Assembly: GCF_001573155.1 (NCBI RefSeq)
Contig: NZ_JRWG01000005.1
Coordinates: forward strand, 62,001 to 126,000
Reading direction: 5' to 3'
DNA length: 64,000 nt
Source of the DNA: Aequorivita aquimaris
Lineage (GTDB): Bacteria > Bacteroidota > Bacteroidia > Flavobacteriales > Flavobacteriaceae
Shown here: one piece after another, positions 27,989 to 37,024 of the stretch
Position numbering within the stretch: position 1 is the first letter of the stretch
Layout of the letters: every line of letters starts with the position of its first letter
Notes under the pieces: generated by a model
The model's input: the letters and a program-made list of their open reading frames with translations, nothing else
Databases searched by the model: none
What the model was told of the DNA's origin: nothing
Translations under genes and position numbers: made by a program

Positions 27989-29512
27989 TTATTCCCAATC
28001 GGGCATAAATGCTTCGGTGAACAGTAATTGATCCTCCTGGTTATCATCAAAAATATAGGAAAAAATTGCTGGAGTGGCTCCAAAGTTGTTTCGCTTTCGT
28101 GTAAAAATCACTGCCCCTTCCGAAGGTGAAAATTTCACATCAAGATCATTCTCTCCTTCAAGAACATCTGTATCTAAAGGCACCAAAGGATCGGTACTGC
28201 CTATAGGATGTAGAAAGATACGGCTCTGAAATATTCTATAAGAATTGTTTTCCGATCCGCTTATATCCCAAGTGAATAATACCTTATCTGCATTTGCAGA
28301 AATATCAATACCTCCCGCTGCACCATTCACGTTTTCCAAAATTATATTTTCTTCGGTCTGGGTAGATAGTCTTGCTGTATAAATACGAATATTATAACCA
28401 CTAGAGTTGTTTGTCTTCAACATTACCAAATCATCGTCAAATTGAGGTACTGCAACTTCGGAAATAAAAGCGCCATCGGTCGTTGTGTATTCTAACTTAA
28501 AGCCACTTCCATCGGAATTTATGGAATATAATTTATCGAAATGTGGATAATAGATTTTACTGTCATTCTGTGCCCAGGTGAATTCCAATTCCTCAGTACG
28601 GAAACCCGCTATAGGTTTTTGCGATGTAATTTGAGTAATACCAGTTCCGTTAAAATTCATTGTAAAAATATGTGTGTTTCCCCCAGAATTCCTTAAAAAG
28701 GCTATTTTATTTAGAATATTACTTTTTTTGGGTCTAAAACTGTTTACGTTTTCACTGGTTAACTGAAGAACGTTAAAGTCTGGTTCTTGAGAAGTTCCCG
28801 AGGTAGGATCTTCAGCCCCAGAATAGATCACTAAATTATCATTGTTTTTCCTTACAAAAACAAATGGATTATCCGGAAAGGTTATTGTCTTAAATTCACT
28901 TATTATAGAACTTACGGGATCGTTGGTATCATCGGTAACTGTAACTTGCCAGAAATATTTTGTGGCCAATTGCAAATTGCTAACCGTAAACGTTGTATCC
29001 TGACCAACTTCAAAAACCTGTATTTCGTCGGTACTTCCGTTTCTTAAGTCCAATTTATAGGAAAGCTCATCATTTTCAGGATCGGATGCTTCCCATATAA
29101 ACTGTACTTGTAAAGGTTGCTCTACTGCGCCATCTTCAGGTGTTACGAGATTTGGCACCGACGGCGGATTATTATCTGAATTGGCAAGCTTCAATTCAAA
29201 GGACACGGCAGCCGTTTTTCCTTCTTGAACTGTTGTAGATTCAAAGCCAGCTGCATAACCAGCTAACTCAGCTTGTACGGAATAATCATCGACTTTAACA
29301 TCTACCAATCGGAATCTTCCCACTGAATCCGTAAAAACCGTAGTTGACGCCGGGTTGGTCGTAATTTTTACATTTTCAAGTGCCTCACCAGTAATCTTGT
29401 CTGTAACCTTTCCTGAAATATTACCGGTAAGGACAACATCTATAGTATCTTCACTACATCCAAAGTTGATTAGGAAGAAACTTGCAAAAACTAAGAATAT
29501 ATATTTTTTCAT
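27989..29512 (-). CDS. lipoprotein with carboxypeptidase-regulatory, Fn3-like and beta-propeller-like domains
   Basis: A 507-residue lipoprotein (lipobox near Cys19, INFGC). Order of parts: carboxypeptidase-regulatory-like domain (about 28-110, GNISGKVTDKITGEALENV), a fibronectin III-like domain (about 115-210, PSVPNLVTPEDGAVEQPLQVQFIWEASDPENDELSYKLDL), then WD40/PD40-like repeats (about 215-507, with NKIAFLRNSGGNTHIFTMNFNGTGITQIT and others). It starts 15 bases after csgG stops and is the last gene before a terminator, so it belongs to the curli operon. Its role in amyloid assembly or surface attachment is unknown. Confidence 0.85.
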   Translation of the reverse strand: MKKYIFLVFASFFLINFGCSEDTIDVVLTGNISGKVTDKITGEALENVKITTNPASTTVFTDSVGRFRLVDVKVDDYSVQAELAGYAAGFESTTVQEGKTAAVSFELKLANSDNNPPSVPNLVTPEDGAVEQPLQVQFIWEASDPENDELSYKLDLRNGSTDEIQVFEVGQDTTFTVSNLQLATKYFWQVTVTDDTNDPVSSIISEFKTITFPDNPFVFVRKNNDNLVIYSGAEDPTSGTSQEPDFNVLQLTSENVNSFRPKKSNILNKIAFLRNSGGNTHIFTMNFNGTGITQITSQKPIAGFRTEELEFTWAQNDSKIYYPHFDKLYSINSDGSGFKLEYTTTDGAFISEVAVPQFDDDLVMLKTNNSSGYNIRIYTARLSTQTEENIILENVNGAAGGIDISANADKVLFTWDISGSENNSYRIFQSRIFLHPIGSTDPLVPLDTDVLEGENDLDVKFSPSEGAVIFTRKRNNFGATPAIFSYIFDDNQEDQLLFTEAFMPDWE

Positions 29513-29527
29513 CTTATCTATTTTGAA

Positions 29528-30910
29528 TTATAGTTTAAAGTAATAATTGAGGCCCACTCCAAAATTATAATAAAAGTCGTTTCTTTTTCCTTGGACTGCC
29601 TTTTCCAGTTTATCGGTAAAAACCAAATTGTGTTCTCCAAAAACTTTTATTCCAAATTTTTTGGAAATAAAATATTCCAGACCTACACCGTATTGAACTT
29701 TAAAAAAAGGCTCGCCAGTGTCAAAAGCATTGTCATTTCTAGGATCCAAAAGCGCAATTATTACCCCAGAACCTGCATAAATAAAGGGAGTAAATTTATC
29801 ATTAGGCAATAAAGCAAACTCGCCATTTAAATCTGCACTCGCAAACACATTTCTATACTGCCGTCCATTATCAATCCTGAAAGCAGAAGCTTTCAGGTTT
29901 GCATTAAAATAGCGGCCAAAATGTTTTTTATATTCCAATCGGGCTAAAAATCCAAGTTCCTGCGTGCTATAGTCATTGTCGGGCAGATTGCCTCCCAGGG
30001 AAATTGACAGTGCATTTTTGGCTTCCCGTCCCACTTGCAATCGATCAAAAAGTAAAGTTGATTCATCTTTTTCCTTTTCCGCAATATAGTCTGCCACCAA
30101 TTGGTCATTTACTTCTTTTCCTCCTTGAGTACTCCAGAATTGTTTCTGAATACCCTCAATAATCAAATCGTGAACCGCCTTTTCAATGGCATCTTTCATA
30201 GCTAATTGCACGGGTTCATTTTGAGTTACTCCTGTTTCTGCTTCAAGTAATCTTTGAAATTTTACGAAACGAAAAAAACTTGCATCGATGGCTTGGGAAA
30301 GAATCGTTTTTGAAACATATACAGTCTTTAAAATTTCGCCATTGCTGGTGGAAACAGCTCGTAAATAAACAGTTATTCTATCTTGTCTATATTTTGCAGA
30401 GCCTCCCAGCCCAAAATAACGAGCACCCATTCCACCTGTAATGATGTTTGTATCGTAGGAAATTATACCCCCCTCAAGCAACAGACCCGCATATAAAAGG
30501 GGTGGTAGCGGAGGTTCATTTGGATTTAAATTTTTTATGTATTCCTGTTTGGTATTCCGAATAATATTACGTTCGGTGGAAAGATTACTCAAATTTTCTC
30601 GCTCAATGGGTATAAACCAACCTGAATCCTCCAAGGCTTTGATAAGCATGGTCGTCCCCCCTTGAGAAACAGCGGTACTAAATGTACTTCCATTTTCTAC
30701 CGCCTTATACTGTCCAGTCTGATCGCTAAAATTATAAACTGCAACTTCCAAAGGCTGGGCCGCCGCGGGTAAATCTAACAAAGTGGAGGTAGATTTTGAA
30801 AACTCTCCAGTCCTGGCCGCCTCTTGAAACATTGGCTGATTAAAATAGGCACCACAGGACGACAACATTAAAACTCCCAATAGGGAAAGTGATTTTAAAA
30901 AGATTTTCAT
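29528..30910 (-). CDS. csgG: curli secretion channel CsgG with C-terminal beta-barrel-like extension
   Basis: Outer-membrane lipoprotein forming the curlin export pore. Residues 1-20 are the signal and lipobox (SSCGAYFNQP, Cys19); residues 25-275 match CsgG (VAVYNFSDQTGQYK, LIKALEDSGWFIPIEREN, GGIISYDTNIITGG, RVYLRAV-type strands). Residues about 290-460 are an added, beta-strand-rich section alternating aromatic and polar residues and ending in YYNFGVGLNYYFKL, with a terminal aromatic-Leu signature of outer-membrane barrels. E. coli CsgG is about 277 residues, so this looks like a fusion. It is preceded by csgF with 9 bases between. Confidence 0.9.
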   Translation of the reverse strand: MKIFLKSLSLLGVLMLSSCGAYFNQPMFQEAARTGEFSKSTSTLLDLPAAAQPLEVAVYNFSDQTGQYKAVENGSTFSTAVSQGGTTMLIKALEDSGWFIPIERENLSNLSTERNIIRNTKQEYIKNLNPNEPPLPPLLYAGLLLEGGIISYDTNIITGGMGARYFGLGGSAKYRQDRITVYLRAVSTSNGEILKTVYVSKTILSQAIDASFFRFVKFQRLLEAETGVTQNEPVQLAMKDAIEKAVHDLIIEGIQKQFWSTQGGKEVNDQLVADYIAEKEKDESTLLFDRLQVGREAKNALSISLGGNLPDNDYSTQELGFLARLEYKKHFGRYFNANLKASAFRIDNGRQYRNVFASADLNGEFALLPNDKFTPFIYAGSGVIIALLDPRNDNAFDTGEPFFKVQYGVGLEYFISKKFGIKVFGEHNLVFTDKLEKAVQGKRNDFYYNFGVGLNYYFKL

Positions 30911-30919
30911 GAATGTATT

Positions 30920-31330
30920 TTAATTTGGGACAATTACTTGAGTTTCCTCGCCAGTTGATGTGTCTAATATATTTATGACTACTCCTTCATCAGATTGAAA
31001 TATCTCAAGATTTAGAGTGCCGTAGGTAAAAGTTCCCTCTTCGTCAAGGTTTAGGCCGTTAATATTCTGTTGCAATAATATGCGAGAGATTTGGCTTAAC
31101 AATTGTCTATTTAAATTATCGCCAAATTGTCCAAGCTCAGATTGCTGATCTCTTTGATTTGCAGGAGCGGTAAGTTTATTTTGAGAAGTGGCAGAACTTA
31201 ATAACCAGTTATAATTAAATGTATCACCCCCAAATGCAGGATTTAAAGGTTCATATGTAAATTGTTGCGCAAACCCAAGAGTTCCAAAAAATAATAAAAC
31301 AGTAGAAAAAATTAGTTTAAATAGGTTCAT
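30920..31330 (-). CDS. csgF: curli assembly factor CsgF
   Basis: A 136-residue exported protein that couples the CsgG pore to the nucleator at the cell surface. Signal peptide about 1-21 (ending GFAQ). The mature N-terminus QFTYEPLNPAFGGDTFNYNWLLSSATSQN matches the CsgF segment that inserts in CsgG (FxNPxFGG...LLNSAxxQN). The C-terminal part is beta-rich (INGLNLDEEGTFTYG...INILDTSTGEETQVIVP). It starts 1 base after CsgE ends. Confidence 0.92.
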   Translation of the reverse strand: MNLFKLIFSTVLLFFGTLGFAQQFTYEPLNPAFGGDTFNYNWLLSSATSQNKLTAPANQRDQQSELGQFGDNLNRQLLSQISRILLQQNINGLNLDEEGTFTYGTLNLEIFQSDEGVVINILDTSTGEETQVIVPN

Positions 31331-31331
31331 A

Positions 31332-32129
31332 TCAATATCGAGTTAGGGTATTGTCTTTTTGCTTTTGTAATTGTTGAAGGTACGCAATACAACGATCTAA
31401 TGCGGCAATAGCCATGCTTTGTAAAAATGATTTTTTAGGTTGCGAAAAAAATTGCCATATTAATTTATCATCTATTTTTACTGATATTCTAGTACTTCGC
31501 ATTCTTCCTGGTACTTCTTCTATTAGGATATTTTTCTTTGTTTGCATGCCACGGTTAAAATATTCGGAATAAAAATACTTGTAAAAATCACGCCCCGCCT
31601 TTGTGAGAGTATTTTCCACTACCAATCCATCCATGACATAACCATCTTGCGGAGCTGCTTGATCCTGACTCGCTGCAGTTTTTGGATTCAATACATCCTC
31701 ATTTACAATTCTCTGATAGCCATTTTCGTATATTAATTCTATGCGATCTTGACCCACAGGCTTATCATCTTTATCATAAAGCACCAACACTAAAACTATC
31801 TTATCGTCAACACTATAATTTACGGATACTGTGGACAATACTTTCTTTTCATTAGCTTTTAGAAAGAAGCGATCAGTCTGATTATTTCTTGATGTATTAT
31901 TATTATCATCAGTGCTATATACGCTAAAATCATATCTTAAATTTATATCTGTTGGCGTAAGATTTTCAGCAGTTGCGGCAAAAGTGAAAAATTCACTTTC
32001 TTTCTTAATATAAATTTTAGCTACATAATCTTTGTTATAAAATTGTGCATTTATCTCTGTAGTTATGCAGAGCATAATTACCAAGAATAAAAAATTTCTC
32101 AATGTATTTTTAAATGTAAAAACTTTCAT
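31332..32129 (-). CDS. csgE: curli assembly protein: CsgH-like domain fused to CsgE
   Basis: A 265-residue periplasmic protein. After a signal peptide (about 1-28), residues 35-135 form a beta-sandwich-like domain resembling the curli inhibitor CsgH (LRYDFSVYSTDDNNNTSRNNQ...KKVLSTVSVN). Residues 160-265 match CsgE (the TKAGRDFYKYFYSEYF block, NILIEEVPGRMRSTRISVKID, IWQFFSQPKK), where CsgE captures curlin and docks on CsgG. E. coli CsgE is about 130 residues. The CsgE part is certain; the CsgH-like part is by pattern only. It directly follows the csgB-like gene. Confidence 0.85.
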   Translation of the reverse strand: MKVFTFKNTLRNFLFLVIMLCITTEINAQFYNKDYVAKIYIKKESEFFTFAATAENLTPTDINLRYDFSVYSTDDNNNTSRNNQTDRFFLKANEKKVLSTVSVNYSVDDKIVLVLVLYDKDDKPVGQDRIELIYENGYQRIVNEDVLNPKTAASQDQAAPQDGYVMDGLVVENTLTKAGRDFYKYFYSEYFNRGMQTKKNILIEEVPGRMRSTRISVKIDDKLIWQFFSQPKKSFLQSMAIAALDRCIAYLQQLQKQKDNTLTRY

Positions 32130-32669
32130 TTAATAAAAACTTCTAACAATAATTGTTGGAGAAGCTTCTGTTTGTCTAAACTTTATTGATTTGGTCAATT
32201 CGTTAACGCCATCACGTTCAAAGTTAAGATAGTCTCCTTCCTGAATCAAATCTAAAGAAATATCCGCATTTGGATTATTTACAAAATCTTTAATTCTGTT
32301 GTTGTTTCCATTCTGCACGAGATCTGTCACCGCAGAATTAGCAATATAATTTAGGTTTGTGTCATTATAATTACCATTTTGAAGAAGATTGATTTCACTG
32401 GCGTTTGTTTGGGTTATAATTCGTGTAGTATTAAAATCTCCTATTTGACGCACATATACTGAATTACCTTCAATAAGTGCATTTTTTGGATTTGGCACTG
32501 AAATGATCCCTAAATTAGTCAAAATCTGAGGAGTTACATTATCTGCATTAATTACTTTTTCATCCCCATTTGTATTATCTCCCTCCCCTTTATAAGTTTG
32601 GCCCCAAACAACTGGCATTAATAAAATTGAAGCTAAGATACCAAATACTATATTTTTTGTTTTTTTCAT
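32130..32669 (-). CDS. csgB: CsgB-like curlin minor subunit
   Basis: A 179-residue exported protein with a signal peptide (about 1-23) and three or four imperfect curlin repeats (NALIEGNSVYVRQIGDFNTTRIITQTN, INLLQNGNYNDTNLNYI, DLVQNGNNNRIKD...LIQEGDYLNFE). CsgB nucleates amyloid growth on the surface in E. coli; the same is likely here. The ATG at 32669 is chosen; an earlier TTG at 32678 is possible. csgE starts at the next base. Confidence 0.8.
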   Translation of the reverse strand: MKKTKNIVFGILASILLMPVVWGQTYKGEGDNTNGDEKVINADNVTPQILTNLGIISVPNPKNALIEGNSVYVRQIGDFNTTRIITQTNASEINLLQNGNYNDTNLNYIANSAVTDLVQNGNNNRIKDFVNNPNADISLDLIQEGDYLNFERDGVNELTKSIKFRQTEASPTIIVRSFY

Positions 32670-32776
32670 AATCAGCAATGTATATGTTTTTCAATAAAAT
32701 CGTATTTAGTATATCAATACCCAAATAGTTTTTAGAATATTCAAAAACCTTGTGTTAAAGATATTAATTTTATTGG

Positions 32777-32805
32777 AAAAGGAGGGCAAAAATTCGCCCT
32801 CCTTT
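32777..32805 (-). terminator. terminator between curlin and csgB
   Basis: AAAGGAGGGC (32778-32787) pairs with GCCCTCCTTT (32796-32805); a T-rich tail follows on the minus strand. It follows the 489-residue curlin gene and precedes csgB, so the downstream genes get less or separate expression. Confidence 0.8.
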
Positions 32806-32839
32806 ATTTATTAGTAATATGTATTTACAAAAGTTGGGC

Positions 32840-34309
32840 TTAGCAACCTGGACATACATCATCAATAACTAATCCTGGAGTGCCATAATTTCCAGTGTGA
32901 GTATCCATATCAGGGAAATCACAAATGATGCCTGGATCTGTTCCATTAGGATTTAGTTGAAGAACGTTTACAGAATTACCTCCATTAGGCATACCATCTG
33001 TAAGGTTTTGTTGAACTGAATAGCTGTGACCACCATCTTGTACAACTAAAATACCATTATCCATTCCTCTTTGTGCAGTTTGAACATAATTATCGTCACC
33101 TAATTGATGAGTATTTACTTGATTACACTCACCTCTTTGAGTTGACATAGCTATGTTATCATTACCATCCTGGAATTGATATGCTTTATGAGTATTACCG
33201 TTTTGAGCTATACCAGCTTGGTTACCATTTCCTGTTTGATCTTGCCAAGCAGAGTTACCACTTCCATTAGGATTACCAAATAAATTCTGGATTACATAAG
33301 CAGCGTTATCATCGCCTGTTTGATTTTGCTCAGAATAGTTACTACCATTAGTTGCATCACCATTTTGATAAAGTTCAGCATTGTTTCCAACACCTAGTTG
33401 ATTTTGGAATGCTCTACCATCAGTAGATCCAGGATTGTATGAACCATTTTGGATATCGTCTATAGAAGTAAGACGACCAAAATAAATTGAAGTTGTTAAG
33501 TCACTAGCGATGGTACCGTCTCCTTGAGAAATAAAAGCTTCGTTTTGTGCAGCAGCGGCCCCCCCGGTATTTTCTTGAGTTTGCTGAGCCTCATTTCCAT
33601 CGCCTATTTGAGCTATAAGAGCAGAGTTATTGCCATCATTACCTCTTTTTTGATCTTGGAAAGCTTTGTTCTCATCTCCTTGTTGCCAGATTTCTGATTG
33701 ATGCCCACCAGTTAAGTTTGCACCCGCATTTTGCTTACTAAAAGCCATGTTACCATCACCAACTTGGTTAATTAAAGCGGAACTACCGTCAAAAGTTTGC
33801 AAGGTTTTAGCAACGTTATTATCACCATCTTGATTTACTTCTGCCATATTATCTTGCGCTTGCTCATTAGTACCTTGACGGATCCAAGCAAAGTTATTAC
33901 TGCTTCCGTCATCATTCATACCCTGATTTGTAAGTGCTTCATTATAATCCCCTTGTTGGTCAGTAATGGACTTATTCTCAGATCCCATTTGATGCACTTC
34001 AGCATCATTTCTTACACCACTAGTAGTTTGAATTGCACCAACTTGTGTAATAAGAGCTAAATTACCTCCGATTCCTGAACCATTTCCTTGATAAGTAGAG
34101 GCCGATTGACTCGTACCTACTTGAAGAACTTGTACGCGGTTATTATCGCCAGTTTGTGTAGATTGCCCAGTGTTTGCATTGGGATCTACAGATAAATTTG
34201 TAATGGTTTCAGCACCAGTGGGAGCTGTAGGAGTTTCCACTCCACCTCTCTGCGCAAAGGCAAAACCACAAAACATTAACGCCGCAGCGCCTAAAATTAC
34301 TTTTTTCAT
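32840..34309 (-). CDS. csgA: large CsgA-like curlin subunit with Cys-containing tail
   Basis: A 489-residue exported amyloid subunit. Signal peptide about 1-19 (FGFAFAQ). The body is made of repeats with Q-x-G-x-x-N pattern spaced about 20-22 residues apart (QTGDNNRVQVLQVG, QQGDYNEALTNQG, QQGDENKAFQDQ, QNGNTHKAYQFQDGNDNIA), as in CsgA fibres. E. coli CsgA is about 150 residues. The last 30 residues break the pattern and hold three Cys (IICDFP...DDVCPGC). A cysteine also lies in GECNQVN. It is transcribed separately from csgB by the terminator at 32777. Confidence 0.88.
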   Translation of the reverse strand: MKKVILGAAALMFCGFAFAQRGGVETPTAPTGAETITNLSVDPNANTGQSTQTGDNNRVQVLQVGTSQSASTYQGNGSGIGGNLALITQVGAIQTTSGVRNDAEVHQMGSENKSITDQQGDYNEALTNQGMNDDGSSNNFAWIRQGTNEQAQDNMAEVNQDGDNNVAKTLQTFDGSSALINQVGDGNMAFSKQNAGANLTGGHQSEIWQQGDENKAFQDQKRGNDGNNSALIAQIGDGNEAQQTQENTGGAAAAQNEAFISQGDGTIASDLTTSIYFGRLTSIDDIQNGSYNPGSTDGRAFQNQLGVGNNAELYQNGDATNGSNYSEQNQTGDDNAAYVIQNLFGNPNGSGNSAWQDQTGNGNQAGIAQNGNTHKAYQFQDGNDNIAMSTQRGECNQVNTHQLGDDNYVQTAQRGMDNGILVVQDGGHSYSVQQNLTDGMPNGGNSVNVLQLNPNGTDPGIICDFPDMDTHTGNYGTPGLVIDDVCPGC

Positions 34310-34646
34310 AATTAAAAGATTTAAAGATTAATATTTGGTTAAAAAAATATTCAGTTTTTGACAAGGAATTACTTCCTTGCATAAAAATAAACCATCATTA
34401 AATGATTTATATAATTATTAAAGGGGATATGTTTTAAAATGTATTTAAAACACATTTTAGAACTAAGGGATACTTTAAAAATGAATCAATATGATTTAAA
34501 ACCAAAAGATTCTTTTACTAAGGGGATAGATTTGTTATTTTAACAATTTTGAGGAGATGGGTTTGTGATATTGCTACCACTTAACCACAACCCAAAGATG
34601 CAATAAAAAATATTAATACACAACTAAGTAACAGCCAGTTGCACTA

Positions 34647-34668
34647 AAAAGGGGGATTTCCCCCTTTT
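34647..34668 (-). repeat. strong G/C hairpin in the csgA leader
   Basis: Perfect 9-bp stem AAAAGGGGG / CCCCCTTTT, loop ATTT. It is 338 bases upstream of the 489-residue curlin start and could be a leader structure, second terminator or intergenic repeat. Confidence 0.4.
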
Positions 34669-34970
34669 GAAAAAGGGTTTTCCCTCACACCAATTCCAAA
34701 TTTATCAGACAAAAAACTTAAAATTATCGATGAACTGCAAAAAATGGGAATTTAACAGATAATGTTAATTTTTTGTTAAAAATTTATTTCTTCATTTTTG
34801 GGCAGAAGTTTTTTCACTTAAATCACAAAAGATAAATTACCTACTCAAAAGGAAACTTTCCTTAGCTGTTTTCTAAAACACTTGTCTTCAATTAAATACC
34901 TTAATATACGGAGTCAAAAAAGGAATAGGCCATAACTCTTACATAAAAATCCTTTTGTCAAAAATTATTC

Positions 34971-35014
34971 TAAAAGCAAAAAGTGCGGAACGCTTAGTGA
35001 CAGCGCTCCACACT
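34971..35014 (-). terminator. terminator of the 655-residue curlin gene
   Basis: Stem 34982-34994 with 35002-35014 (13 bp, loop 34995-35001). Read as minus-strand RNA all 13 pairs are allowed, two of them G-U; read on the plus strand these two would be mismatches, which shows the hairpin works for the minus strand. A TTTTTGCTTTT tail follows. Confidence 0.75.
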
Positions 35015-35056
35015 CTTTTAAATTGCAGAAATTCATTTCTACTGTTTATGCAGTTA

Positions 35057-37024
35057 TTAGTTTTGGGTTACCGTAGAGGTATTCATATTACCCAATTGGT
35101 TAACGGTACTCATATTGCTCATGCCGGTTTGACCAACAGTACTCATATTGCTATTACCGTTTTGCATAACATCACTGATGTTTAGATCTCCCATTTGTGA
35201 GACATCCGATGTATTTGTAGCGCCTAGCTGATTTACTTCTGCTGTATTCCAATCACCTTCTTGCAAGATTTTGGAATGATTAGTAATTCCTCCACTTTGT
35301 TCGCTGGTAGCTATGTTATCATCACCAAGCTGATATGTATCTGATTTTTGCATATTTTCTGCCCCCTGTATCTGGATTGAACTATTTCTGTTACCCTCTT
35401 GTTCTAAAGTAGCTCGAGATTGACTCGCTTGTTGAGATTCTCCATAGTTATTGTTTCCTGCTTGTCTGAAATAACTTGTACCCGCACGACCTGTTTGATT
35501 TTGTACACTCTCATTCATATCGCCAATCTGATCAACAAAGGCTGCATTGGAACTGCTCCAAGCATGTGCCAAAAGATTGGTTTGAGTTATAGTTGCCTTA
35601 TTTGAATTTCCTAATTGTCCAATACCTGCACTACCAGAACCAGATGTTACGCCTGTATAACCAACTTGCGTAATAGTTCCTATGTTATTATCACCCGTTT
35701 GTGTGATTCCTTTTGCCATCATTGTGCCTGATGCTCCAGGAGTTCTCCAAACACCATATTTGGTAATATCATTTTTAAATCTATTCCCTTCCGAGCTCAT
35801 GGTAGCCTTATTGTCGTTTCCTAACTGATTTACAATCCCTGTATTATCATTTCCATTTTGATCAACATTTGATTCGTTTCTACTTCCCACCTGCTGCACA
35901 TCACTATTATTGCGGTTTAATTTCTGACTAACAATCGAAATGTTTTCTGTACCATTTTGATTAACAACAGAGACATGGTCATTTCCATTTTGATCTACAT
36001 CTGAAGAATTATAATTTCCACCATTTTGTCTCACGTTACTGCTATTATCATCTCCTTCCTGCGAAACTTCACTGTCGTTTCCAGTTCTAGCCTGTGCTAC
36101 TAAACTACCATTATCATTTCCGGTTTGAATTGTCTTACTCTGGTTATAAGACCCATATTGTGAAACTCCTGCACCGTTTCTATCTCCAGTTTGAGTTATT
36201 GTCGATTCGTGATTATCACCATTTTGATTAGTGTTGGTATGATTTCTAAAACCAGTTTGGTTTACTTCAGAATTACTGTCAATCCCATTGCTTTGTACAA
36301 GATTAGCAGTGTTTGAATCTCCATCCTGTGCAACTGTGGAGGTGTGAAGGCTTCCGGATTGACTTACAGAAGAGTTGTTTTCATTCCCAATTTGGTTTCC
36401 AGTACTTTGGTTTTGGTCACCATCTTGAAGAATATCGCTAATGTTATCATTTCCATCCTGCGAAACACCCGAAGTATTATTGTCGCCAGTTTGTCTTACT
36501 TTACTATCATTTCGATCACCCAATTGTGATACGGTAGATCCGTTGAATTCACCTACAAGCGTATTGGAATCCCATTGCTCTACTACAGATTTGTTACTAT
36601 TTCCATCTTGTGAAACATCACTTGTGTTGTCTCGCCCGGTTCTGCTTACAGTTCCGTTACTGCTAATCTGACCTTGGCTAACCCTAGAAGAGTTATTATT
36701 GCCACCTTGCTGAAGAACTACACTTGTATTGCGCTCATCTACTTGGCCCACTTTGGAATTATTGTTTCTGCCAATAGAAGTTACGGTACTGGCATTGTCA
36801 TCTCCACGCTGCTCAACAATAGAGTTGTGGATGGTACCGGACTGTGTAACGGTAGCGGCATTTCTATTTCCTGTAGAAATAACTTCGCTGTCATTGCCAC
36901 CTCCGCTCTGTACAATCTGGGCATCATTGCTATTACCATCTTGATTTACATCGCTTACATTTGATTGTGCGAACATAAGTGTTCCACACATAAGTGCTGC
37001 TGCACTGAATACTACTTTTTTCAT
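35057..37024 (-). CDS. very large CsgA-like curlin subunit, 655 residues
   Basis: A 655-residue exported amyloid subunit. Signal peptide about 1-20 (LMFAQSN). The rest is a near-regular run of half-repeats about 11 residues long (SDVNQDGNSNDAQIVQSGGG, ASTVTSIGRNN, SVVLQQGGNNN), i.e. roughly 50 half-repeats, with Ser/Asn/Gln/Gly dominating and no Cys in the mature part. Around residues 415-460 the pattern is interrupted (RFKNDITKYGVWRTPGA), containing the only Trp-rich stretches. E. coli CsgA has five repeats. It stands first in the csg cluster. Confidence 0.87.
   Translation of the reverse strand: MKKVVFSAAALMCGTLMFAQSNVSDVNQDGNSNDAQIVQSGGGNDSEVISTGNRNAATVTQSGTIHNSIVEQRGDDNASTVTSIGRNNNSKVGQVDERNTSVVLQQGGNNNSSRVSQGQISSNGTVSRTGRDNTSDVSQDGNSNKSVVEQWDSNTLVGEFNGSTVSQLGDRNDSKVRQTGDNNTSGVSQDGNDNISDILQDGDQNQSTGNQIGNENNSSVSQSGSLHTSTVAQDGDSNTANLVQSNGIDSNSEVNQTGFRNHTNTNQNGDNHESTITQTGDRNGAGVSQYGSYNQSKTIQTGNDNGSLVAQARTGNDSEVSQEGDDNSSNVRQNGGNYNSSDVDQNGNDHVSVVNQNGTENISIVSQKLNRNNSDVQQVGSRNESNVDQNGNDNTGIVNQLGNDNKATMSSEGNRFKNDITKYGVWRTPGASGTMMAKGITQTGDNNIGTITQVGYTGVTSGSGSAGIGQLGNSNKATITQTNLLAHAWSSSNAAFVDQIGDMNESVQNQTGRAGTSYFRQAGNNNYGESQQASQSRATLEQEGNRNSSIQIQGAENMQKSDTYQLGDDNIATSEQSGGITNHSKILQEGDWNTAEVNQLGATNTSDVSQMGDLNISDVMQNGNSNMSTVGQTGMSNMSTVNQLGNMNTSTVTQN

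Follow-up and report, generated by a model that had tools for sequence, protein, structure and literature searches.

How does a bacterium whose operon holds no separate csgC gene keep the subunits of its curli fibres from aggregating on their way out? The question is raised by a stretch of 64,000 nucleotides (nt) of Aequorivita aquimaris (contig NZ_JRWG01000005.1, positions 62,001 to 126,000 of the forward strand), called the window below, which belongs to a genome of 3,146,406 bases in 65 contigs. Seven genes of its minus strand, listed in Table 1, form a curli (type VIII secretion) operon, and the most informative part of this locus is a CsgC-type domain carried by CsgE. We conclude that the operon very probably joins a periplasmic amyloid inhibitor, in the shape of a CsgC/CsgH-like domain, to CsgE, which caps the CsgG channel.

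The identity of the secretion genes is straightforward. Pfam profiles match CsgE, CsgF and CsgG, which rules out a failure of any of the three to be recognized; the CsgG profile has a single match in the whole genome, and a profile of ours, A2, finds the solved CsgG at 1.1e-69. A preliminary description of the window, made from its letters, had placed seven minus-strand open reading frames between positions 27989 and 37024, all of which are located there, and had noted that the genes from csgB to the lipoprotein gene are nearly gapless: the intervals are 0, 1, 9 and 15 nt. It took the locus for a flavobacterial variant of curli secretion with extra domains on two assembly proteins, and both views hold: the profiles match, and the extra domains are those of CsgE and CsgG. 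Its report that csgC is absent is true of a separate gene, but a CsgC/H-like domain sits within CsgE. It also reported no csgD in the window; no search aimed at this regulator, which not all curli loci have, was made.

The Pfam CsgE profile spans only residues 166-258 of the 265 residues of the window protein. Nearer the N-terminus, residues 42-123 resemble the NCBIfam profile CsgH (E = 5.4e-6) and residues 77-121 resemble CsgC (0.008), both below the cut-offs of these profiles. The CsgH profile matches all 16 members of an alignment of close relatives, A1 (E up to 0.1, best 1.5e-6). Among 34 proteins chosen from the phylum, two of them free N-halves of split genes, the matches are CsgH in 10, NCBIfam CsgC in 9, Pfam Tafi-CsgC in 7 (best 4.7e-5) and LysM in 10. 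A profile of 12 fused proteins from the whole order, A7, matches the solved structures of CsgE, 2na4 (1e-8, positions 156-247), and of CsgC, 2xsk (9.9e-5, positions 65-125). The AlphaFold model of the window protein has two parts, one a sandwich with seven to eight strands, the other alpha/beta and CsgE-like. When Foldseek is run against 350,542 chains of the PDB, rank 1 is CsgC 2xsk (3.4e-5, template modelling (TM) score 0.78 by target) and rank 2 is CsgH 2n59 (5.0e-5, TM score 0.66). This ranking leads us to reject an arbitrary beta-sandwich, though 38 further chains, many of them immunoglobulin-like domains belonging to larger enzymes, likewise score better than E 0.001.

These further chains are one of several observations that weigh against the domain being a CsgC/CsgH-type inhibitor. 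The window protein scores 26.4 bits, against an NCBIfam CsgH cut-off of 35, and confidence in the model is moderate (mean predicted local distance difference test, pLDDT, 71.1; predicted TM score 0.44). Profile A7 has no match to the solved CsgH, and profile A1 finds the solved CsgE only (0.0021); up to E 10 neither CsgC nor CsgH appears. CsgC and CsgH are marked by disulphides and by a positive patch; the N-terminal domain has no cysteine in any of the 16 relatives, and its bulk isoelectric point (pI) is acidic, between 4.4 and 6.5 in 15 of them and 8.1 in one. The basic half is the CsgE domain, at 9.0-10.0 in the 16 relatives of the window, a pattern that itself fails in a related genus, called g2 below, where the median pI is 5.6 for the N-terminal domain and 4.9 for the CsgE domain. 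In the window the domain, at 4.9, and the curlins, at 4.05 and 4.41 (all bulk values), fall short of the gap of about two units seen in the chaperone family. A cysteine pattern defines the known types, CxC for CsgC-like and a distant pair for CsgH-like proteins (PMC4838910). Because the domain lacks cysteines in all 16 relatives, we term it CsgC/H-like on its sequence, and neither CsgC nor CsgH.

The missing cysteines, the acidic pI and the score below the cut-off would also fit a diverged beta-sandwich that kept the CsgC fold without an inhibitor role, and that only aids the oligomerisation of CsgE or its docking on the longer CsgG of Bacteroidota. One family has a LysM domain instead in 8 of 10 CsgE proteins, and the N-terminal part may accordingly serve for docking. 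This explanation is unlikely: the fold search puts CsgC and CsgH ahead of every other chain, the separate CsgH genes that six other Bacteroidota genomes have at their curli loci are related to the domain, and relatives appear to produce the domain alone. Judged by sequence and model, what CsgE carries in addition at its N-terminus is an amyloid-chaperone domain of CsgC/CsgH-like type, with a predicted inhibitor action.

How widespread is the fusion? A survey of 395 genomes of the phylum found CsgE in 41, and the CsgH profile in 21 of these: in frame with CsgE in 13, split from it at an A-run in 2, and separate in 6. The separate genes, seven copies in the six genomes, lie 4.0-6.8 kb from csgE, match the solved CsgH at 5.7e-11, and match the fused domain in a profile-profile comparison (98.2, 5.3e-14). 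In the family and order of the window, 15 of 16 csgE genomes have the domain fused or split (split in two), and the sixteenth, G130, has a weak CsgH match (0.051). In the family at large CsgE is found in 86 of 397 genomes, and 87 of 88 csgE frames are 238-405 amino acids (aa) long, one being 152; at this scale the fusion is read from open-frame length only. A further chaperone-domain copy elsewhere in the window's own genome was sought and discarded, the best other match having E 0.297. The CsgH profile has no match in the other 20 of the 41 csgE genomes, 10 of which belong to one family of another class, f24. There an N-terminal LysM (eight of the ten scanned proteins: L010, L013, L014, L017, L022, L023, L024, L027) occupies the place of the window's CsgC/H-like domain and may tie the cap to peptidoglycan.

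The neighbourhood of the fused gene is stable. In 16 named related loci, 13 of them from Aequorivita, the order csgB-csgE-csgF is found in all 16, that of csgG and the lipoprotein gene in the 15 that reach it (the contig of L047 ends after csgF), and curlin genes or fragments, variable in number, lie upstream in all 16. Other members of the family and order have the same gene order, with short curlin genes in several. Calling the locus rearranged singles out nothing special: the order curlin(s)-csgB-E-F-G-lipoprotein is common to relatives, and curli genes outside the gammaproteobacteria generally stand in a single operon (PMC4838910). Among named organisms the closest to the window are Aequorivita; the window CsgE is 83% identical, over the best segment, to that of A. 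vladivostokensis.

In the window the csgE gene is in frame: it has no run of A or T above seven, and its junction has no run of six or more. We now turn to genus g2, of the same family, where 398 genomes were searched as part of a larger group and 93 have a CsgE match. The junction was examined in all 93 genes: 52 are in frame, and the remaining 41 have their halves in different frames (loci L094-L126, L128, L129, L131-L133, L136, L137 and L139; L035 and L036 are also split). The offset is -1 in 40 of the split genes and +1 in one. A run of nine or more A is present at the frame change in all 41: the break site is A10 followed by G in 40, with A_AAA_AAG in the phase of dnaX, and A12-G in the other. 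In 40 genes a stop in the zero frame follows the run within 13 nt; in one it comes at 31 nt.

Such genes could simply be decayed or mis-sequenced. Homopolymers are error-prone in sequencing and in mutation, and the splits are mostly in one clade, so that few independent events are involved: in a quick FastTree phylogeny of the 93 genes, rooted at the midpoint, 40 splits fall in a group of 44 tips with support 0.878 (a group of 45 tips with 40 splits has support 0.43), and parsimony counts five changes. We nevertheless hold decay or error to be very improbable. In 123,504 nt of the same strand, all 40 occurrences of A10 are at the junction; outside it A9 occurs five times and A11 once. Both halves are under purifying selection, the median ratio of non-synonymous to synonymous substitution rates (dN/dS) being 0.17 for the N-terminal half and 0.10 for the CsgE half; it was computed on 405 of 820 possible pairs per domain, with a divergence filter set beforehand. 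The prompt stop of the zero frame in 40 of the 41 genes also speaks against decay. One further split, L139, is outside the main clade, in a group of 29 otherwise in-frame genes (support 0.991). Finally, 8 of the 52 in-frame genes also have at least nine A at the junction, and there it is mostly the -1 frame that stops at once, within 3 nt in six genes; the remaining two have their stops at 12 and 17 nt.

Alternatively, translational coupling could produce the halves as two distinct proteins, without any change of frame. The frames overlap by a few codons, as such coupling would have it, and an ATG, GTG or TTG is found 5' of the CsgE domain, in its frame, in 11 of the 41 split genes. Yet the other 30 have no such start, and no secretion signal was seen by eye in two whole frames of the CsgE part, a protein that works in the periplasm; separate translation of the halves is quite improbable.

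The A10-G junction suggests programmed slippage, which would give both a free chaperone and the fusion in g2. Slippage at A-runs is known (PMC5009743), and the junction is similar to frameshifting of the dnaX type in its A10-G and in the phase of A_AAA_AAG. The stimulators known from dnaX are the points that weigh against it: a Shine-Dalgarno-like tetramer within 15 nt upstream of the run is present in only 7 of the 41 genes, and the downstream structure is modest, a weak stimulator with a mean z-score of -1.34, and z below -2 in 11 of 41 (60 mononucleotide shuffles each). Because of these weak stimulators and of the genes with A12 and A9, slippage of the RNA polymerase is favoured, and a reading of the split genes by the ribosome only was dropped; ribosomal shifting could act in 40 of the 41.

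Assuming that the domain is indeed an inhibitor, its place in the pathway can be sketched from E. coli, where CsgA stays soluble in the periplasm thanks to CsgC, CsgE and CsgG carry out export, and CsgF and CsgB direct nucleation (PMC4838910, PMC5135000, PMC12822426). The functional steps that we infer for the window would be as follows. Curlins would reach the periplasm via Sec, and the CsgC/H-like domain would hold these acidic, N/Q-rich subunits unfolded; its tether to CsgE would place the inhibitor at the mouth of the CsgG pore, so that subunits would be passed straight on; CsgF and the small curlin would nucleate outside; and the OmpA-like barrel that each CsgG subunit would add may steady the pore within the membrane. 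The likeliest gain of the fusion would be local inhibition at the pore mouth, with inhibitor and cap in constant proportion. A ratio as low as 1:1000 is enough for CsgC to act, and CsgE acts at 1:1 (PMC5135000). In g2, slippage at the A10 run would yield free chaperone and fusion from one gene, and relatives that make the free domain too would hold more inhibitor than cap. The in-frame genes that carry a run, with a -1 frame that mostly stops at once, would give the same two products with reversed polarity, as in dnaX. It is tempting to conjecture that Bacteroidota built the curli inhibitor into the secretion cap, with separate CsgH genes in some, the fusion in Flavobacteriales, and in g2 a recoding switch at A10 that sets the ratio of free chaperone to fusion; we consider this broader picture somewhat more probable than its negation.

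That the two are fused in nature suggests a shared site of action, inhibitor and cap working on one and the same subunit, and a single protein suffices to test this. In the relatives, the A10 junction is a natural system for the study of recoding in Bacteroidota, and with it one can test directly whether cells require more chaperone than cap. Recoding there, if shown, would be more surprising than the window locus: a programmed event that tunes a functional-amyloid pathway.

There is also the possibility that the window holds an ordinary Bacteroidota curli operon, with novelty confined to domain architecture. Curli are widespread in the phylum, where csgA/B with csgEFG is a common cluster (PMC12822426), an arrangement that the window shares (PMC3521004, PMC4838910, PMC12822426), and six curli genes are known in the flavobacterium Lutibacter profundi (PMC5219744). 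CsgH-type sequences in Bacteroidota are not new, because PMC4838910 reports CsgH sub-families that include Bacteroidetes. Against this modest account, to which we leave a small but real chance, PMC3521004 has csgC lacking in all Bacteroidetes genera, and the fusion, the CsgG barrel and the split csgE go unmentioned in the available portions of PMC3521004, PMC4838910, PMC12822426 and PMC5219744. In the literature searched, no title or abstract opening bears on a CsgE fusion or a split csgE, which does not establish absence from print. The statement that curli of Bacteroidetes lack CsgC is to be qualified: the sampled Flavobacteriales carry a CsgC/H-like domain as part of CsgE.

Compared with csgBAC/csgDEFG of E. 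coli, the window has curlin repeats, CsgE, CsgF, CsgG and a CsgC-like domain in common; it differs by its one operon, the chaperone joined to CsgE, the barrel added to CsgG, the added lipoprotein, and much longer curlins. The domain shares fold and detectable sequence homology with CsgC of E. coli (PDB 2xsk, 2y2t) and CsgH of R. palustris (PDB 2n59), and differs from them in being no separate protein, in its lack of cysteines and in its acidic bulk pI. The difference from dnaX (PMC5009743) is in the weak stimulators, in the A12 and A9 genes, which fit slippage of the RNA polymerase better, and in the run itself, which the window does not have.

Table 1. Features of the curli locus, with positions in the window and the evidence for each (E values follow profile names; z compares folding energy with shuffled sequences)
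Feature	Positions	Strand	Evidence
Giant curlin, 655 aa	35057..37024	-	PF07012 7.9e-52, 18 stretches; 11/22-aa periodicity
Candidate conserved leader or regulatory region 5' of the 489-aa curlin gene	34310..34780	-	alignment of 8 loci
Terminator-like hairpin after the giant curlin gene	34975..35025	-	-26.8 kcal/mol, z -6.4
Curlin, 489 aa	32840..34309	-	PF07012 2.2e-12, 5 stretches
Terminator-like hairpin after the 489-aa curlin gene	32770..32815	-	-19.3 kcal/mol, z -5.6; short T-tract
Small curlin-like protein in csgB position, 182 aa	32130..32678	-	weak CsgA match 4.7e-4; three motifs at 22-aa spacing
csgE, CsgC/H-like domain and CsgE, 265 aa	31332..32129	-	profile, fold, model
CsgC/CsgH-like chaperone domain, about residues 33-135	31725..32033	-	CsgH 5.4e-6; Foldseek ranks 1-2
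CsgE domain proper, about residues 163-260	31350..31643	-	PF10627 3.5e-19 over 166-258
csgF, 136 aa	30920..31330	-	PF10614 2.7e-32
csgG, channel and added barrel, 460 aa	29528..30910	-	PF03783 3.7e-66 over 49-261
OmpA-like 8-strand barrel, CsgG C-terminus, residues 299-458	29537..30016	-	8 model strands; OmpA/NspA top; OMP_b-brl 16/16
Lipoprotein, carboxypeptidase-regulatory and fn3-like domains, 507 aa	27989..29512	-	PF13620 2.9e-13; adjoins csgG in 15/15 named loci

The second assembly protein with an extra domain is CsgG. The profile OMP_b-brl matches its C-terminal part in every one of the 16 relatives (best 1e-7), the AlphaFold model has eight strands there, mostly with pLDDT of about 80-90, and Foldseek ranks OmpA and NspA first (1.8e-7 and 1.9e-7); on this modelling CsgG carries an OmpA-like barrel of eight strands. 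Confidence is low in the channel part of this model (mean 56.6), a point against our overall interpretation, and for this reason we make no claim about the arrangement of the barrels around the pore. The chain of E. coli CsgG has 277 aa, against 453-523 in 32 of the 33 Bacteroidota loci in which CsgG was located and 364 in the other one.

In the lipoprotein, fn3 matches below its cut-off and there are weak propeller-like matches. Its cysteine (window 29447-29458) is followed by S-E-D in 14 of 16 sequences, by N-E-D in one and by S-E-N in one. Acidic residues after the lipoprotein cysteine are a surface-export signal of Bacteroidota lipoproteins, and the S-E-D resembles that signal.

The curlin repeat has 14 matches in the whole genome, all within the two large curlin genes, and Curlin_rpt (PF07012) is found in two of the three candidate subunits. 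Self-identity at lag 11 is 0.283 for the giant curlin and 0.165 for the 489-aa curlin, against shuffle maxima of 0.123 and 0.119. A repeat scan lists no tandem repeats in the DNA: the repetition exists at the level of the protein. The lengths of the two large curlins are as the preliminary description gave them; long curlins, with up to 22 repeats, have been described before (PMC3521004). The third candidate, of 182 aa, starts with TTG, with an ATG three codons further in. It has three QxGxxN motifs, 22 aa apart. Because there is no Pfam match at E up to 1, the NCBIfam CsgA match is weak, and the lag-11 self-identity of 0.111 is not above shuffles (largest 0.14), it is called curlin-like and nothing more; its position and motif spacing point to a putative role as nucleator. 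The number of curlin genes 5' of csgB differs among Aequorivita genomes (L040-L052), a hint of rapid gain and loss of subunits, and curlin genes appear in pieces at L042:5467-6711 and L049:5249-6723, which may reflect gene decay or misassembly of the repeats.

The claim of terminators behind both large curlin genes stands in part. The two stem-loops fold far better than shuffled sequences, but support from a terminator pattern scan is poor: the scan does not list the hairpin after the giant curlin gene, and lists the other on the plus strand only, its minus-strand T-tract being short. Region 34310-34780 is conserved in Aequorivita, even where no giant curlin gene was found adjoining; it is a candidate regulatory region or long leader. 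A motif TATCYCCY 5' of the curlins was rejected as a regulatory signal: it occurs 8 times in the window, against 5.35 expected, and 15 of 100 shuffles reach 8; a repeat of the test used the motif taken from the same site, and proves nothing. The -33/-7 pattern of flavobacterial promoters occurs 22 times against 13.93 expected, a count reached by 5 of 100 shuffles, and no promoter is claimed on it. The locus is followed in the window by a gene of 392 aa, presumably resembling purM.

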